Counted from the first letter of the stretch, positions 28,346 to 32,983 are shown. The stretch is DNA of 32,983 bases from Gammaproteobacteria bacterium (GCA_013002045.1 JABDKV010000064.1:1-32983); one strand, 5' to 3'. Made by a program: numbers and translations. The notes: generated from the letters alone by a model not told the origin.

Positions 28346-29668
28346 ATGGCGGTACGATTGAAACCAAAACTATTACGACAGCTGCTGGTGGCGTGCATGC
28401 TTGTGCTCGCAGCCTTGCCGGCCGTGGCGCAGGAAGCATTACTGCAACAGGCGCAGGCCTTGCTCAACAGCGGTGACCATGCAGCGGCCCGGCAACTACT
28501 TGAACCGCGCGAAGCGGAGCTGGCCGGTGACCCCTCGTATGATTATCTGCTCGGCCTGGCCTTGCTCGAAACCGGTGATCCTGGCCGTGCCTCGCTGGCA
28601 CTGGAACGCGCGGTCGAACAGGATGCGCGTTTCGCCGGGGCGCGGCTCGACCTTGCCCGCGCCTACTACGCTTCCGGTGACTACCGGGCGGCACAGACCG
28701 AGCTGGAGGCACTGCGTGGACTCAATCCGCCACCGCAGGCGCAACAGGCTATCGAGGAATACCTTGCCCTGATCGCCAACCGGCAGCGGCGGCTGCGGAT
28801 GGAATACCGACTGCGTACCCGCGTCGGATATGACAGCAACGCCAACAGCGCGACGGCGGCAGAAGACTTTCTTGGCTTCGACCTGATCGAACGCAGCCGC
28901 GAGACCGCGTCGGCGTTTGCTGAATATGGCGGTGCCGTGACGATGCTCAAGCCGCTCAGTACCAGACTGGTGCTCGATACCCGACTCAACCTGCGTCAAC
29001 GCAATAACCCGGGTGCCAGCTTCGTAAACAGTACTGCAGGCGATATATCCGTCGGACTGCGTCATGTTAAAGAGGGAGAAACCCGGTCGCTACGACTGCA
29101 GAGCTACCGTCTTAACATTGATGGCGATCTGAATAGTCGTGGAACCTCTTTAAATGCATCCTGGGAACGCAACCTGCGCCGGCGTCTGCGTGGCGGCGTC
29201 TCATTGCGCTACGGCCAGACCCGATTCGGTGACGCGCTCAAGGTTAAAGATGTCGATCAGCTATTGCTTGGCACCAATGTGCTGTGGTCTTACGGTAGTG
29301 CAGGTCGCGGCACCCTGGGTGCAACCTTGCTCGCGGGTACGGATGACCCGGTCAGCGATGGCTCGCGTTATGCCCGCGACCTTTATGGCATACGACTGAC
29401 AGCGGGTTGGTCATTCAGTCCTGAAATCCGGGCACAGTTCACGGCAGGCATCATGCAATCCGATTACGATGCCATATTCTTCGAGCAGCGTTTCGATGAG
29501 CCGCGCGAAGACACGATGACCACGGCGGCGGTCAACGTGCAATGGCGAATGTCACCGAAGTGGCTTATGTCGCACCAGGTGAGCTACAGCAACAACGACA
29601 CCGATATCGATGTATTTGCATTCGAACGTGTTGAGACCAGTCTGAACATCAACAGGATCTGGCGTTGA
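28346..29668 (+). CDS. TPR plus beta-barrel outer-membrane protein, Slam/DUF560-like
   Basis: A 440-residue protein. A signal peptide (1-28, ending A-L-P-A-V-A) is followed by TPR-like helices (about 31-145: A-L-L-N-S-G-D-H-A-A-A-R, L-A-L-L-E-T-G-D-P-G-R-A, A-Y-Y-A-S-G-D-Y-R-A-A). From about 150 there are alternating amphipathic strands to the end, opening with V-G-Y-D-S-N-A-N-S-A-T. This is the architecture of Slam (type XI secretion) translocators, which move TbpB-like proteins across the outer membrane. The last residues are N-R-I-W-R, without the usual terminal Phe. I chose the ATG at 28346 because it starts the signal peptide; the longer frame from 28241 would run through the CRP box. 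The next gene encodes a likely client. Confidence 0.78.
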   Translation: MAVRLKPKLLRQLLVACMLVLAALPAVAQEALLQQAQALLNSGDHAAARQLLEPREAELAGDPSYDYLLGLALLETGDPGRASLALERAVEQDARFAGARLDLARAYYASGDYRAAQTELEALRGLNPPPQAQQAIEEYLALIANRQRRLRMEYRLRTRVGYDSNANSATAAEDFLGFDLIERSRETASAFAEYGGAVTMLKPLSTRLVLDTRLNLRQRNNPGASFVNSTAGDISVGLRHVKEGETRSLRLQSYRLNIDGDLNSRGTSLNASWERNLRRRLRGGVSLRYGQTRFGDALKVKDVDQLLLGTNVLWSYGSAGRGTLGATLLAGTDDPVSDGSRYARDLYGIRLTAGWSFSPEIRAQFTAGIMQSDYDAIFFEQRFDEPREDTMTTAAVNVQWRMSPKWLMSHQVSYSNNDTDIDVFAFERVETSLNINRIWR

Positions 29669-29707
29669 GTGGCTTTAAGTAAAACAAAACACGCTTTTTC
29701 GCCGAAC

Positions 29708-29723
29708 CGTGAGAAGAATCACA
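29708..29723 (+). promoter_or_regulatory. upstream CRP-family box (one mismatch)
   Basis: CGTGA-gaagaa-TCACA matches TGTGA-N6-TCACA at 9 of 10 positions. Its centre is exactly 33 bp upstream of the perfect box at 29741, about three helical turns, so two dimers could bind one face of the DNA before the FecR-protein gene. Confidence 0.6.
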
Positions 29724-29740
29724 AGTATTTCATCGATCTC

Positions 29741-29783
29741 TGTGAGAGCACTCACAGACCCATTCCAGCTATTCCGGTAACTT
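29741..29783 (+). promoter_or_regulatory. perfect CRP-family box and candidate class II promoter
   Basis: TGTGA-gagcac-TCACA (29741-29756) is a perfect TGTGA-N6-TCACA site, extended by C and G to a seven-base inverted repeat. A weak -10-like TAACTT (29778-29783) would give a start at 29790 with the box at -41.5. The poor -10 and lack of a -35 fit activator dependence. The FecR-protein ATG is 54 bases after that predicted start. Confidence 0.68.
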
Positions 29784-29843
29784 TAGCAACGCAATCTGGG
29801 ACTAGGCGTTTTCGTTCTGAGTGGAGTTAAGGGTATTTTGGAA

Positions 29844-31331
29844 ATGAACAGGTTAATTGAAAAATTCTGGCGTTTACCGGTCGCGTGCCTCCTGGTGGTC
29901 TTGCCACTGGGGCTGGCTCACGCCGACGCAGGTAAAGTCATGTTTGTATACGGCAAGGCATTCGTCATGTCAGCTGACGGCAATCGCGCCGCTCTTACCA
30001 AGGGCAGCACGGTGCAATCGGGTGACACGATCGTAACCTCTGCCAACGGCCGTGTGCAGCTGCGCATGGAAGACGGTGGTTTGCTGGCGCTGAAGCCGCA
30101 GACTGAGTTCGTCATCGAAGAGTTCAACTTCCCGGCATCTGCTGGTGGCCCTGTGGCTGCAACTGGTGAGCCGCGGAGCTTCTTTGCGCTGGTTAAGGGT
30201 GGTTTCCGCTCGATCACCGGTGCAGTTGGTAAAAACGACAAGTCGGACTACCGCGTTCGTACCCCGGTCGCGACGATCGGTATTCGTGGAACTGACTACA
30301 CGGCTGTGCTGTGCTCTGCCGGCTGCGACAACATGCAGAACGGCCTCTATGTCGGTGTGACCGACGGTGGTGTTGTACTGCAGAACAGCGGTGGCGCCCT
30401 GAATCTCGATCCGGGCCAGTTTGGCTTCGTTCGTGATGGCGCTTCTGCACCGGAGAAGTCGGCTGCTGCTGCACGCCTGCTCGCGGCTGAAGTTGCACCC
30501 GAAGCGGCCGAGTCTGACGACGACGACGCTGATGCACAGGTCGCCACAGTTGGCGAAGGCGATATCAACCTGACCGAAGGTGGCCAGGCTGTCAACGACC
30601 AGAGTGGCGCGGTTGCTTATGCTGCTGGCCCGCTTGCCGGTGACAATGGCTTCACCGCTGTCTCAGCCCAGGGCGAGTCGAACAAGTTTCTCGACGAGCA
30701 GGGCAACCCGATCGCATTCGATGCGGATTCGCCGCTCGGCCAGGCTACGGTCGGTCAGAATGGCGGCATGGCAGTCAACCTCGGTCGTGATACCGACCGC
30801 GCTGGCGCCACCGGCATGCACTGGGGTCGCTGGACCACTGGCGCAGTCCAGGTCGGTGATGAGACGGTCGCTGCTGACAGTGTGCACTGGGTAACCGGTC
30901 CTGACGGCATCGCTCGTCCGGAGCTGCCAACCGAAGGTACGGTGGACTTTGCCCTGATCGGTAACACCAACCCGACGGACAGCAACGGCAATGTGGGTAC
31001 GCTTGGTTCGGCCAGCCTCTCGGCTGACTTTACCAGCCAGACCGCCGACGCCGATGTCAGCCTGTCGTTCGACGAGACCAGCCAGGTCTGGGACGCATCA
31101 GCACAGGATGTCGATATCAACAGCGACGCGACTTTCGCTGGCGAGTTTGACTCAGTCACGGTCACTGACACCGACTCAGGTGCCATGGACCAGGGTGAAG
31201 GCGACCTCAGCGGCTTCTTCACCGGCGACGCCGACGGCAACCTTACCGGTGCCGGTATGAGCTACTCGCTGACTGAAGACGACGAAAGCGTTTCCGGTGC
31301 AGCTGCCTTCCAGGTCGACGGAGGACAGTAA
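29844..31331 (+). CDS. secreted FecR-domain protein with TbpB/HphA-like C-terminal barrel
   Basis: A 495-residue protein. A signal peptide (1-28, ending A-H-A-D-A) has no lipobox. The FecR domain (about 30-197) shows G-S-T-V-Q-S-G-D-T-I, V-Q-L-R-M-E-D-G-G and T-P-V-A-T-I-G-I-R-G-T-D-Y, with C157 and C161 close by. An acidic, Ala-rich linker (about 200-245) follows. The C-terminal part (about 320-493) has W-G-R-W, L-P-T-E-G-T-V-D-F, L-G-S-A-S-L-S-A-D-F, L-S-G-F-F-T-G-D and V-S-G-A-A-A-F. This pattern recalls the eight-strand barrel of TbpB/HphA-type Slam substrates. The ATG at 29844 has AAGGG ten bases upstream; a TTG at 29838 is in frame. The gene has its own terminator. FecR domains elsewhere are signalling or peptidoglycan-side modules; the role here is unknown. 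Confidence 0.75.
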   Translation: MNRLIEKFWRLPVACLLVVLPLGLAHADAGKVMFVYGKAFVMSADGNRAALTKGSTVQSGDTIVTSANGRVQLRMEDGGLLALKPQTEFVIEEFNFPASAGGPVAATGEPRSFFALVKGGFRSITGAVGKNDKSDYRVRTPVATIGIRGTDYTAVLCSAGCDNMQNGLYVGVTDGGVVLQNSGGALNLDPGQFGFVRDGASAPEKSAAAARLLAAEVAPEAAESDDDDADAQVATVGEGDINLTEGGQAVNDQSGAVAYAAGPLAGDNGFTAVSAQGESNKFLDEQGNPIAFDADSPLGQATVGQNGGMAVNLGRDTDRAGATGMHWGRWTTGAVQVGDETVAADSVHWVTGPDGIARPELPTEGTVDFALIGNTNPTDSNGNVGTLGSASLSADFTSQTADADVSLSFDETSQVWDASAQDVDINSDATFAGEFDSVTVTDTDSGAMDQGEGDLSGFFTGDADGNLTGAGMSYSLTEDDESVSGAAAFQVDGGQ

Positions 31332-31360
31332 GCACACGGCCCTGGCTTAATGCCTGACCA

Positions 31361-31389
31361 AAGGCCCGCCTTCCGGCGGGCCTTTTTTT
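31361..31389 (+). terminator. rho-independent terminator
   Basis: A perfect eight-base stem GGCCCGCC (31363-31370), loop TTCC and GGCGGGCC (31375-31382) is followed by seven T. It lies 30 bases after the FecR-protein stop and separates that gene from the lipoprotein gene. Confidence 0.95.
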
Positions 31390-31523: not shown

Positions 31524-32983
31524 TTGCGAGTCACAGGAACGACACCAATCAAAACGCTCAACATAAACTGTCTCGTTATACTGGCGGTCCTCGCTACTGC
31601 CTGTAACAGTGACTCGAGCTCTGACGTCGTCACGTCGGTTGCCGCTCCAGACCGCACTGTTTCCGGTCAGGTAGCTAAGGGTCCACTGGATGGCGCGCTC
31701 GTTGAAGTTTTTGCAGTCGACGATCACGGTCAGGCACAGGGTCCTGCTATAGCAACCTCGCTGACGGATGCGAACGGGAACTGGGCTGTCAGCCTGTCTG
31801 CCGACGATCAGCCGCTGCTGGTGCGCTCGTCTGGCGGCCGTTATGTCGACGAAGCAGATCCGGAACCAGACCCGGCACAACGGCGATCAGTAACTCTGCA
31901 ACCCGATGACCAGTTCGAGGCACTATTGCCGCCGACACTGTCGTCGATTGCGATTAATGCCTATACCAACGCGCTGCTGCGCAAGTCCCGTGCTGAGACC
32001 CAGGGTGCCGATTTCCTTGCAGTGCATGCGACCAACCGGGAGTTTTACTCGCGCGCGTTTGGCTTCGATTTGTTATCGACGATTCCGGCCGACCCGATTG
32101 CGCCGGCCGCCAGCGCCAGCGCCGATGCAGTGGCCTACAGCCAGGCACTTGGGGGCATTGCCAACGTCATCAATGCAGTCGCTATCGCTAACGGTCAGGC
32201 GATTGCCGATTTTGCTGCGATCGACGCCGTTATCGATGACCTGACCAATTGCAGCATAGATGGTCGTAGCATCGATGGCGATGTCGGTCCGATCGTAATG
32301 GTCACGCGTGACCTGAATGCAGAGATCCTGCGTTTCCGCAATAACAACTTCGCTGCCCATTCCGGTCGCGGACTGCTACAGATCAGTCTGGCGGAGTGCC
32401 AGCGCTCCGGTCGCCTGCCCGACAGGACGGCACCGCAGTTTAGTAACGTGCCGGCAAGCGTGACCATCGCAGCCAGTAGTGCAGCCGGTGCGACAGTTGC
32501 AGAAGTCGGCGCTGTCCTTGGCGGAATTGAGGCAATCGACGATCGGGACGGACCGGTGAGCATCGACTTTGGCCTGGATGCCCCGTTGCCGCTGGGTAAC
32601 AACTCGCTGACTATCAGTGCCAGTGATGCGGCCGGCAACAGCGCTACGAGCACGATTGAAGTCGTTGTCGCTGACCTCGATCCACCTACGATTACCGCGC
32701 CGGTCAGCGTAGACGTCATGTCTGTCGGTGTGCTGACCCAGGTAACGCTGGGCGCACCGCAGGTCGCCGACAATGTCACCGCCACTGCCTCATTGCAGGT
32801 CAGCAATGATGCGCCGGCCGATGGCTTTACTGTTGGCATTCACCTGGTGACGTGGACGGTTAGCGACGCGGCGGGACTCAGCGCGTCGGCACAGCAACAG
32901 GTCATTGTACGCAACCAGGCACCGGTACTGAGCAATGCGGTCGGTGATCAGCAGGCGATCGAGGGTCAGCCTTTTACGCTCGA
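31524..32983 (+). CDS. large Ig/HYR-repeat lipoprotein, 5' part only
   Basis: An open frame with no stop to the window end (486 codons visible). A lipoprotein signal I-L-A-V-L-A-T-A-C-N-S-D is followed by a carboxypeptidase-regulatory-like beta sandwich (T-V-S-G-Q-V-A-K-G-P-L-D-G-A near residue 50). A helical segment comes next, with N-A-Y-T-N-A-L-L-R and an F-G-F-D-L-L-S-T-I-P-A-D-P stretch. Then there are two HYR-like modules: D-R-D-G-P-V ... I-S-A-S-D-A-A-G-N-S-A-T and D-L-D-P-P-T-I-T-A-P ... V-T-W-T-V-S-D-A-A-G-L-S-A-S. A cadherin/dystroglycan-like opening (A-I-E-G-Q-P-F-T-L) ends the visible part. Such proteins are long surface adhesins. The first in-frame start is TTG 31524. An ATC at 31548 with AGGAA upstream would give the neater M-K-T-L-N signal but is a very rare start. 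Confidence 0.82.
   Translation, partial: MRVTGTTPIKTLNINCLVILAVLATACNSDSSSDVVTSVAAPDRTVSGQVAKGPLDGALVEVFAVDDHGQAQGPAIATSLTDANGNWAVSLSADDQPLLVRSSGGRYVDEADPEPDPAQRRSVTLQPDDQFEALLPPTLSSIAINAYTNALLRKSRAETQGADFLAVHATNREFYSRAFGFDLLSTIPADPIAPAASASADAVAYSQALGGIANVINAVAIANGQAIADFAAIDAVIDDLTNCSIDGRSIDGDVGPIVMVTRDLNAEILRFRNNNFAAHSGRGLLQISLAECQRSGRLPDRTAPQFSNVPASVTIAASSAAGATVAEVGAVLGGIEAIDDRDGPVSIDFGLDAPLPLGNNSLTISASDAAGNSATSTIEVVVADLDPPTITAPVSVDVMSVGVLTQVTLGAPQVADNVTATASLQVSNDAPADGFTVGIHLVTWTVSDAAGLSASAQQQVIVRNQAPVLSNAVGDQQAIEGQPFTL

Follow-up and report, generated by a model that had tools for sequence, protein, structure and literature searches.

Slam proteins, the translocators of type XI secretion systems (T11SSs), were first described as exporting lipoproteins. 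According to the literature, such systems have been verified only from one host-associated cluster, in which the cargo binds haem, metal or the host. Ten T11SS clusters have been published. As laid out in a recent survey, T11SS cargo consists of an effector, a pedestal and a C-terminal 8-strand barrel (Grossman et al. 2025, PMC12282271), and in the Slam-exported hemophore HphA a handle is joined to a C-terminal barrel (PMC8560813), a layout that is matched by the protein P0002 described here. P0002 and its neighbour P0001 are encoded near the right end of a 32,983-nucleotide stretch of DNA from a gammaproteobacterium (GCA_013002045.1, JABDKV010000064.1:1-32983), which is contig C253 of a 3.1 Mb genome and which we refer to in its entirety as the window. 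We think it likely that the two proteins constitute a type XI (Slam-like) secretion unit, in which P0002 is exported with its FecR effector. Both open reading frames (ORFs) read in one direction with 175 bp between them, and their parts are as follows.

28346..29668, + strand: P0001, a Slam/DUF560-like outer-membrane protein and the proposed translocator; 440 residues, with a signal peptide (identified by eye), a TPR domain and a 14-strand barrel
28433..28783, + strand: periplasmic TPR domain of P0001, residues 30-146 (Pfam TPR_19, 1e-10; helices in the AlphaFold2 model)
28796..29662, + strand: 14-strand barrel of P0001, residues 151-439 (AlphaFold2; weak SlipAM/BBP2_2 matches in P0001, significant SlipAM matches in relatives)
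29844..31331, + strand: P0002, a FecR-handle-barrel protein and the proposed secreted client; 495 residues, with an N-terminal signal peptide that lacks a lipobox
29925..30431, + strand: FecR domain of P0002, residues 28-196 (PF04773, 41.7 bits against a cut-off of 24; PupR fold match)
30597..30896, + strand: handle/pedestal sheet of P0002, residues 252-351 (AlphaFold2; alignments A1, A3 and A5)
30939..31316, + strand: 8-strand, TbpB_B_D-like C-terminal barrel of P0002, residues 366-491 (AlphaFold2; hhalign; HphA/TbpB/fHbp fold matches)

In the mechanism that we propose, P0002 would cross the inner membrane by Sec, P0001 would recognise its C-terminal 8-strand TbpB-like barrel, and P0001, with its periplasmic TPR domain and 14-strand barrel, would deliver P0002 to the surface of the cell or release it into the medium; the exported P0002 would be a soluble protein with its FecR effector domain borne on the handle. 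Recognition, translocation and final location are modelled on HsmA-HphA and Slam1-TbpB, and the role of the FecR domain in P0002 is likewise putative; what the analysis itself supports are the folds (by prediction), the homology, the gene pairing and the clade.

The layout of P0001, a TPR domain followed by an outer-membrane barrel as in Slam/DUF560 proteins, had been proposed in an initial annotation and was borne out by AlphaFold2 modelling with 70 homologues (mean pLDDT 95.5), which gave 7 helices in residues 7-146 and, in residues 151-439, a barrel of exactly 14 strands. Among 70 relatives of P0001, SlipAM (PF04575) matches 39 (E<=0.01, best 2.4e-14) and TPR_Slam (PF24575) matches 35 (E<=0.01, best 2e-7), the latter also being found in 16/17 members of a smaller set (E<=0.1); PF24575 is not listed for P0001 itself, in which TPR repeats are present. 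Additionally, a profile built on P0001 relatives recovers, in other genomes, Slam-like proteins that adjoin TbpB_B_D genes. A Pfam SlipAM search of the source genome returned no match and is uninformative because control genomes gave none either, and searches of the PDB by sequence only yielded generic TPR matches for P0001 and none for P0002. A bacterial SH3 domain (PF08239) is additionally present in 5/17 exporter relatives (alignment A2).

The C-terminal part of P0002 had been likened to the TbpB/HphA barrel, and this too stood: the AlphaFold2 model (pLDDT 85.6 with 56 homologues, ~92-98 across most of the barrel) consists of a FecR region (residues ~28-196), a disordered linker (220-250), the handle sheet (252-351) and a barrel of 8 strands (366-491). 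Foldseek against the PDB placed HphA first, followed by PupR, TbpB, fHbp, LbpB and the TbpB C-lobe; the whole-protein TM-scores are low (0.2-0.5) because every match spans one part only. When a profile of the P0002 C-terminal region was aligned with one built from 25 TbpB_B_D barrels, hhalign returned a probability of 96.4% (E 1.1e-9), and the controls returned <=0.5% (30 column shuffles), 0.5% (reversal) and <=0.9% (unrelated profile pairs). The signal peptide of P0002 was identified by eye, and no lipobox-like motif was found ahead of FecR in 97 relatives. Within the handle sheet, WGRW and H348 are nearly invariant. Separately, a CxxxC pair at residues 157 and 161 (window 30312-30326) is invariant in 15 proteins of the FecR-CTD family, i.e. 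those with a FecR domain and a P0002-type C-terminal domain (CTD) (alignment A1), which suggests a disulfide or ligand site.

The two genes also occur together in related genomes, as the initial annotation had expected. When genome contigs were scanned for the FecR-CTD family, 331 relatives emerged, and in 76 of the best 80 loci, which were read, a TPR-barrel gene lies directly 5' on the same strand, frequently with an overlap of 4-19 bases; the four exceptions are a short FecR protein without a barrel (L157) and three loci that lie at a contig end or close to one (L158, L159, L166). The bias of fetching by FecR was removed by searching 321 gammaproteobacterial genomes separately with CTD and exporter profiles. 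An adjacent FecR gene is present in 93/93 loci with an exporter score >200 bits (a count that includes one locus twice, L163 being L243), among them all 16 exporter loci read that lack a CTD match; among 20 lower-scoring exporter loci, TbpB_B_D is found beside eight and FecR beside two. Chance or an annotation artefact can be rejected because all 93 loci are paired.

The exporters with FecR partners form one clade (51 rows, support 100/100), which spans gamma- and betaproteobacteria and is separate from the TbpB-linked exporters. Exporter distances correlate with CTD distances at r 0.79, a value reached in 0/2000 permutations, and with FecR distances at r 0.77; for the FecR domain and CTD of the same protein the value is 0.63. 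These correlations suggest that exporter and barrel co-evolve, although part of the signal could come from rate differences and shared descent. The strand counts of the two barrels, the fold matches of the client, the Pfam matches of the relatives and the invariant pairing all support a type XI-like translocator and its client, and none of the outcomes named beforehand as refuting this reading (no 14-strand barrel in P0001, no C-terminal barrel in P0002, no co-occurrence) came about.

Two further ideas about the partners were tried and rejected. The notion that many FecR partners lack a barrel did not hold: among 15 long partners missed by the profile hidden Markov model (HMM), nine match the CTD profile at >=87% and six are ambiguous, and a barrel is lacking with certainty only in FecR partners that are too short. 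The notion that FecR and barrel lie on separate genes (G007, G034, G045, G021) was dropped because the pieces stop at contig edges in every case. Other arrangements were also seen. For example, L228:7638-9137 and L229:7688-9031 encode a P0002-type C-terminal domain with neither a FecR domain nor a nearby exporter, possibly as orphan clients carrying a different effector, and in Propionivibrio (L155, L161, L179) the gene order is short FecR, exporter, FecR-CTD.

Several findings weigh against the secretion of P0002 by P0001. P0001 itself scores 17.8 bits against SlipAM (E 0.0025), under the cut-off of 22; Pfam finds no TbpB_B_D in P0002, whose C-terminal region is without any Pfam match, and finds it weakly (best 0.0033) in 3/56 relatives. 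For this reason the family assignments draw on the relatives, on comparison of profiles with profiles and on the predicted structures. In Foldseek, P0001 matches BcsC, PelB and porins best, with no Slam among the matches shown, so its fold cannot tell protein export from polysaccharide export; the EpsL profile matches 30/70 P0001 relatives. In at least four loci, moreover, the exporter is paired with a FecR protein of a length that cannot accommodate a barrel (L232:5679-6623, L240:6717-7469, L244:1685-2737 and L246:842-1555, two of the four with Pro-rich tails), and because of these pairs the invariant partner of the exporter is FecR, not the barrel. Finally, CHASE2-cyclases are frequent neighbours of the pair in related loci and hint at signalling.

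Might the pair, then, be a signalling device? We regard trans-envelope signalling as rather unlikely. The TPR-barrel protein would sit in the outer membrane as a receptor or scaffold, and the FecR protein, wholly or partly periplasmic, would pass a signal from the surface on to a CHASE2 adenylate/guanylate cyclase; FecR might be a retention plug, with the barrel outside. Among the 72 loci with enough flank for neighbour counts, a CHASE2-cyclase is near the pair in 25 (cyclase or the repeat lipoprotein described below in 40), and in many paralogous loci (L131, L126, L127, L083, L085) it lies directly upstream of the exporter. In LapA, the retention module keeps an adhesin in the outer membrane. 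Residues 32-94 of P0002 resemble a module of this type (retention_LapA, NF033682, 38.5 bits, below the cut-off of 50; fold match 5ix9), and the FecR region matches the fold of PupR (6ovk). A signalling or anchoring role keeps some probability because of this resemblance and because FecR is the invariant partner, short barrel-less FecR proteins included. In Campylobacterota, CHASE2-cyclase, FecR and TPR genes are clustered and have been proposed as one signalling pathway (PMC9239204). What speaks against such a pathway here is that the window contains no CHASE2 gene and that the source genome's two CHASE2 genes, which are located elsewhere, have no adjoining exporter or FecR gene within the stretches read. 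Additionally, a TbpB-like barrel has no obvious job in a protein retained in the periplasm, and barrel distances track the exporter more closely than they track the protein's own FecR domain (0.79 vs 0.63).

A surface device, which we hold to be unlikely, would work as follows: the Slam-like barrel would pass the handle and barrel of P0002 to the outside, the FecR domain would remain periplasmic, anchoring the protein and signalling to a CHASE2 cyclase, and the repeat lipoprotein would be the surface partner. If true, such a device would link type XI export with cyclic-nucleotide signalling or adhesion control.

The repeat lipoprotein is the product of a third gene, which lies beyond a probable terminator in the window and has relatives in other loci.

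31360..31389, + strand: G+C-rich hairpin with a run of T behind it, a probable terminator after P0002 (read in the sequence as AAAGGCCCGCCTTCCGGCGGGCCTTTTTTT; absent from the list of the scan tool)
31524..32983, + strand: third gene, cut off by the contig end; its product is a lipoprotein whose N-terminal domain is conserved and which has an HYR repeat (g3 HMM, E 3.6e-112, the window ORF itself being one seed of this HMM)
Repeat lipoprotein family members, recurrent 3' of the pair: window:31524-32983; L106:11585-13984; L110:4454-13726; L118:11563-19107

The promoter/terminator scan of the window had a yield no higher than that of shuffles. In this lipoprotein family, an N-terminal domain of ~270 residues with the motifs SGGxYVDEAD and RFRNNNF is followed by HYR, Ig or cadherin-like repeats, and the proteins reach 3090 residues. 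A family member is encoded downstream of the pair in 21/72 loci, and of 44 such lipoproteins, 40 have a lipobox-like motif ahead of the conserved domain. The downstream lipoprotein is probably the surface partner of P0002, as HphR is for HphA. That it might instead be the real cargo, with P0001 surfacing the large repeat lipoprotein and P0002 serving as a periplasmic or surface accessory, would suit its lipobox-like motif, its recurrence near the pair and the early description of Slams as lipoprotein exporters. We consider this improbable, however: FecR adjoins every pair and the lipoprotein only a minority of them, no barrel resembling that of TbpB was noticed in the lipoprotein, and in the window the probable terminator separates its gene from the pair.

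The upstream, divergent neighbours of the pair, as read from translations, are a NUDIX hydrolase, mnmA and aconitase. Polysaccharide export, in which the TPR-barrel protein would be an exporter of the BcsC/PgaA/PelB/EpsL type and the FecR protein would serve as regulator or as polymer-binding accessory, is very improbable: BcsC and PelB lead the PDB matches of P0001 and the EpsL and BcsC profiles match some of its relatives, but no synthase was noticed by the pair (the flanks of relatives were not systematically annotated), the relatives match Slam-specific models, and the partner bears a TbpB-type barrel. The closest relatives of the locus are in metagenome-assembled gammaproteobacteria (L102, L103), and the source genome is of the same order as a Woeseiaceae assembly (G010 = L131). 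The cluster also occurs in Pseudoalteromonas denitrificans (L130). A second FecR fragment in the source genome (L271:5564-5905, G000:C215) is cut at a contig end and possibly belongs to an unassembled paralogous pair.

Returning to P0001 and P0002 as translocator and secreted client, we find that FecR-bearing Slam-like pairs point to an undescribed branch of type XI (Slam) systems. The FecR domain is otherwise known from periplasmic sigma-factor regulation. Here, the clade is large, occurs in environmental gamma- and betaproteobacteria and has a single constant partner type, FecR; it predicts clients for hundreds of genes (331 loci in one scan), with a TbpB-like barrel and a WGRW handle as a sequence rule for finding more of them. 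Two questions also become testable: can a FecR domain function extracellularly, and how do CHASE2 receptors get their signal?

The pair can be compared with several known systems. Like the FecR/PupR cell-surface signalling regulators, P0002 has a PF04773 FecR domain and a fold match to the PupR signalling domain; unlike them, its signal peptide leads straight into FecR, it has no cytoplasmic anti-sigma domain, and no sigma factor gene was seen adjoining the pair in the window. The CHASE2-cyclase/FecR/TPR cluster of Campylobacterota (PMC9239204), compared by description and not by sequence, brings together the same kinds of gene, although it has been linked there to signalling only and not to a Slam or TbpB barrel. 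With the T11SS cargo of the 2025 survey (PMC12282271), P0002 shares an effector, a pedestal/handle and an 8-strand barrel, but FecR is not among the architectures described in the main text of that survey, nor is it mentioned in the main text of the founding survey of 2021, which fits the suggestion of the initial annotation that a FecR cargo would be an unusual and perhaps undescribed client. As in Slam1-TbpB, there is a homologous exporter profile (SlipAM and TPR_Slam in relatives) and a TbpB_B_D-like barrel, whereas P0001 belongs to a separate clade and P0002 is no lipoprotein and carries a single barrel. In HsmA-HphA, as here, a TPR-barrel exporter gene lies beside the gene for a protein that is exported by Sec (putatively so for P0002) and has a handle and a C-terminal 8-strand barrel, and among PDB folds it is HphA that P0002 matches best. 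The differences are that the effector of P0002 is a FecR domain and not a haem clamp, that the client gene lies downstream of the exporter, where in most TbpB-linked loci read it lies upstream, and that the recurrent neighbours of the pair are a repeat lipoprotein or a CHASE2-cyclase.
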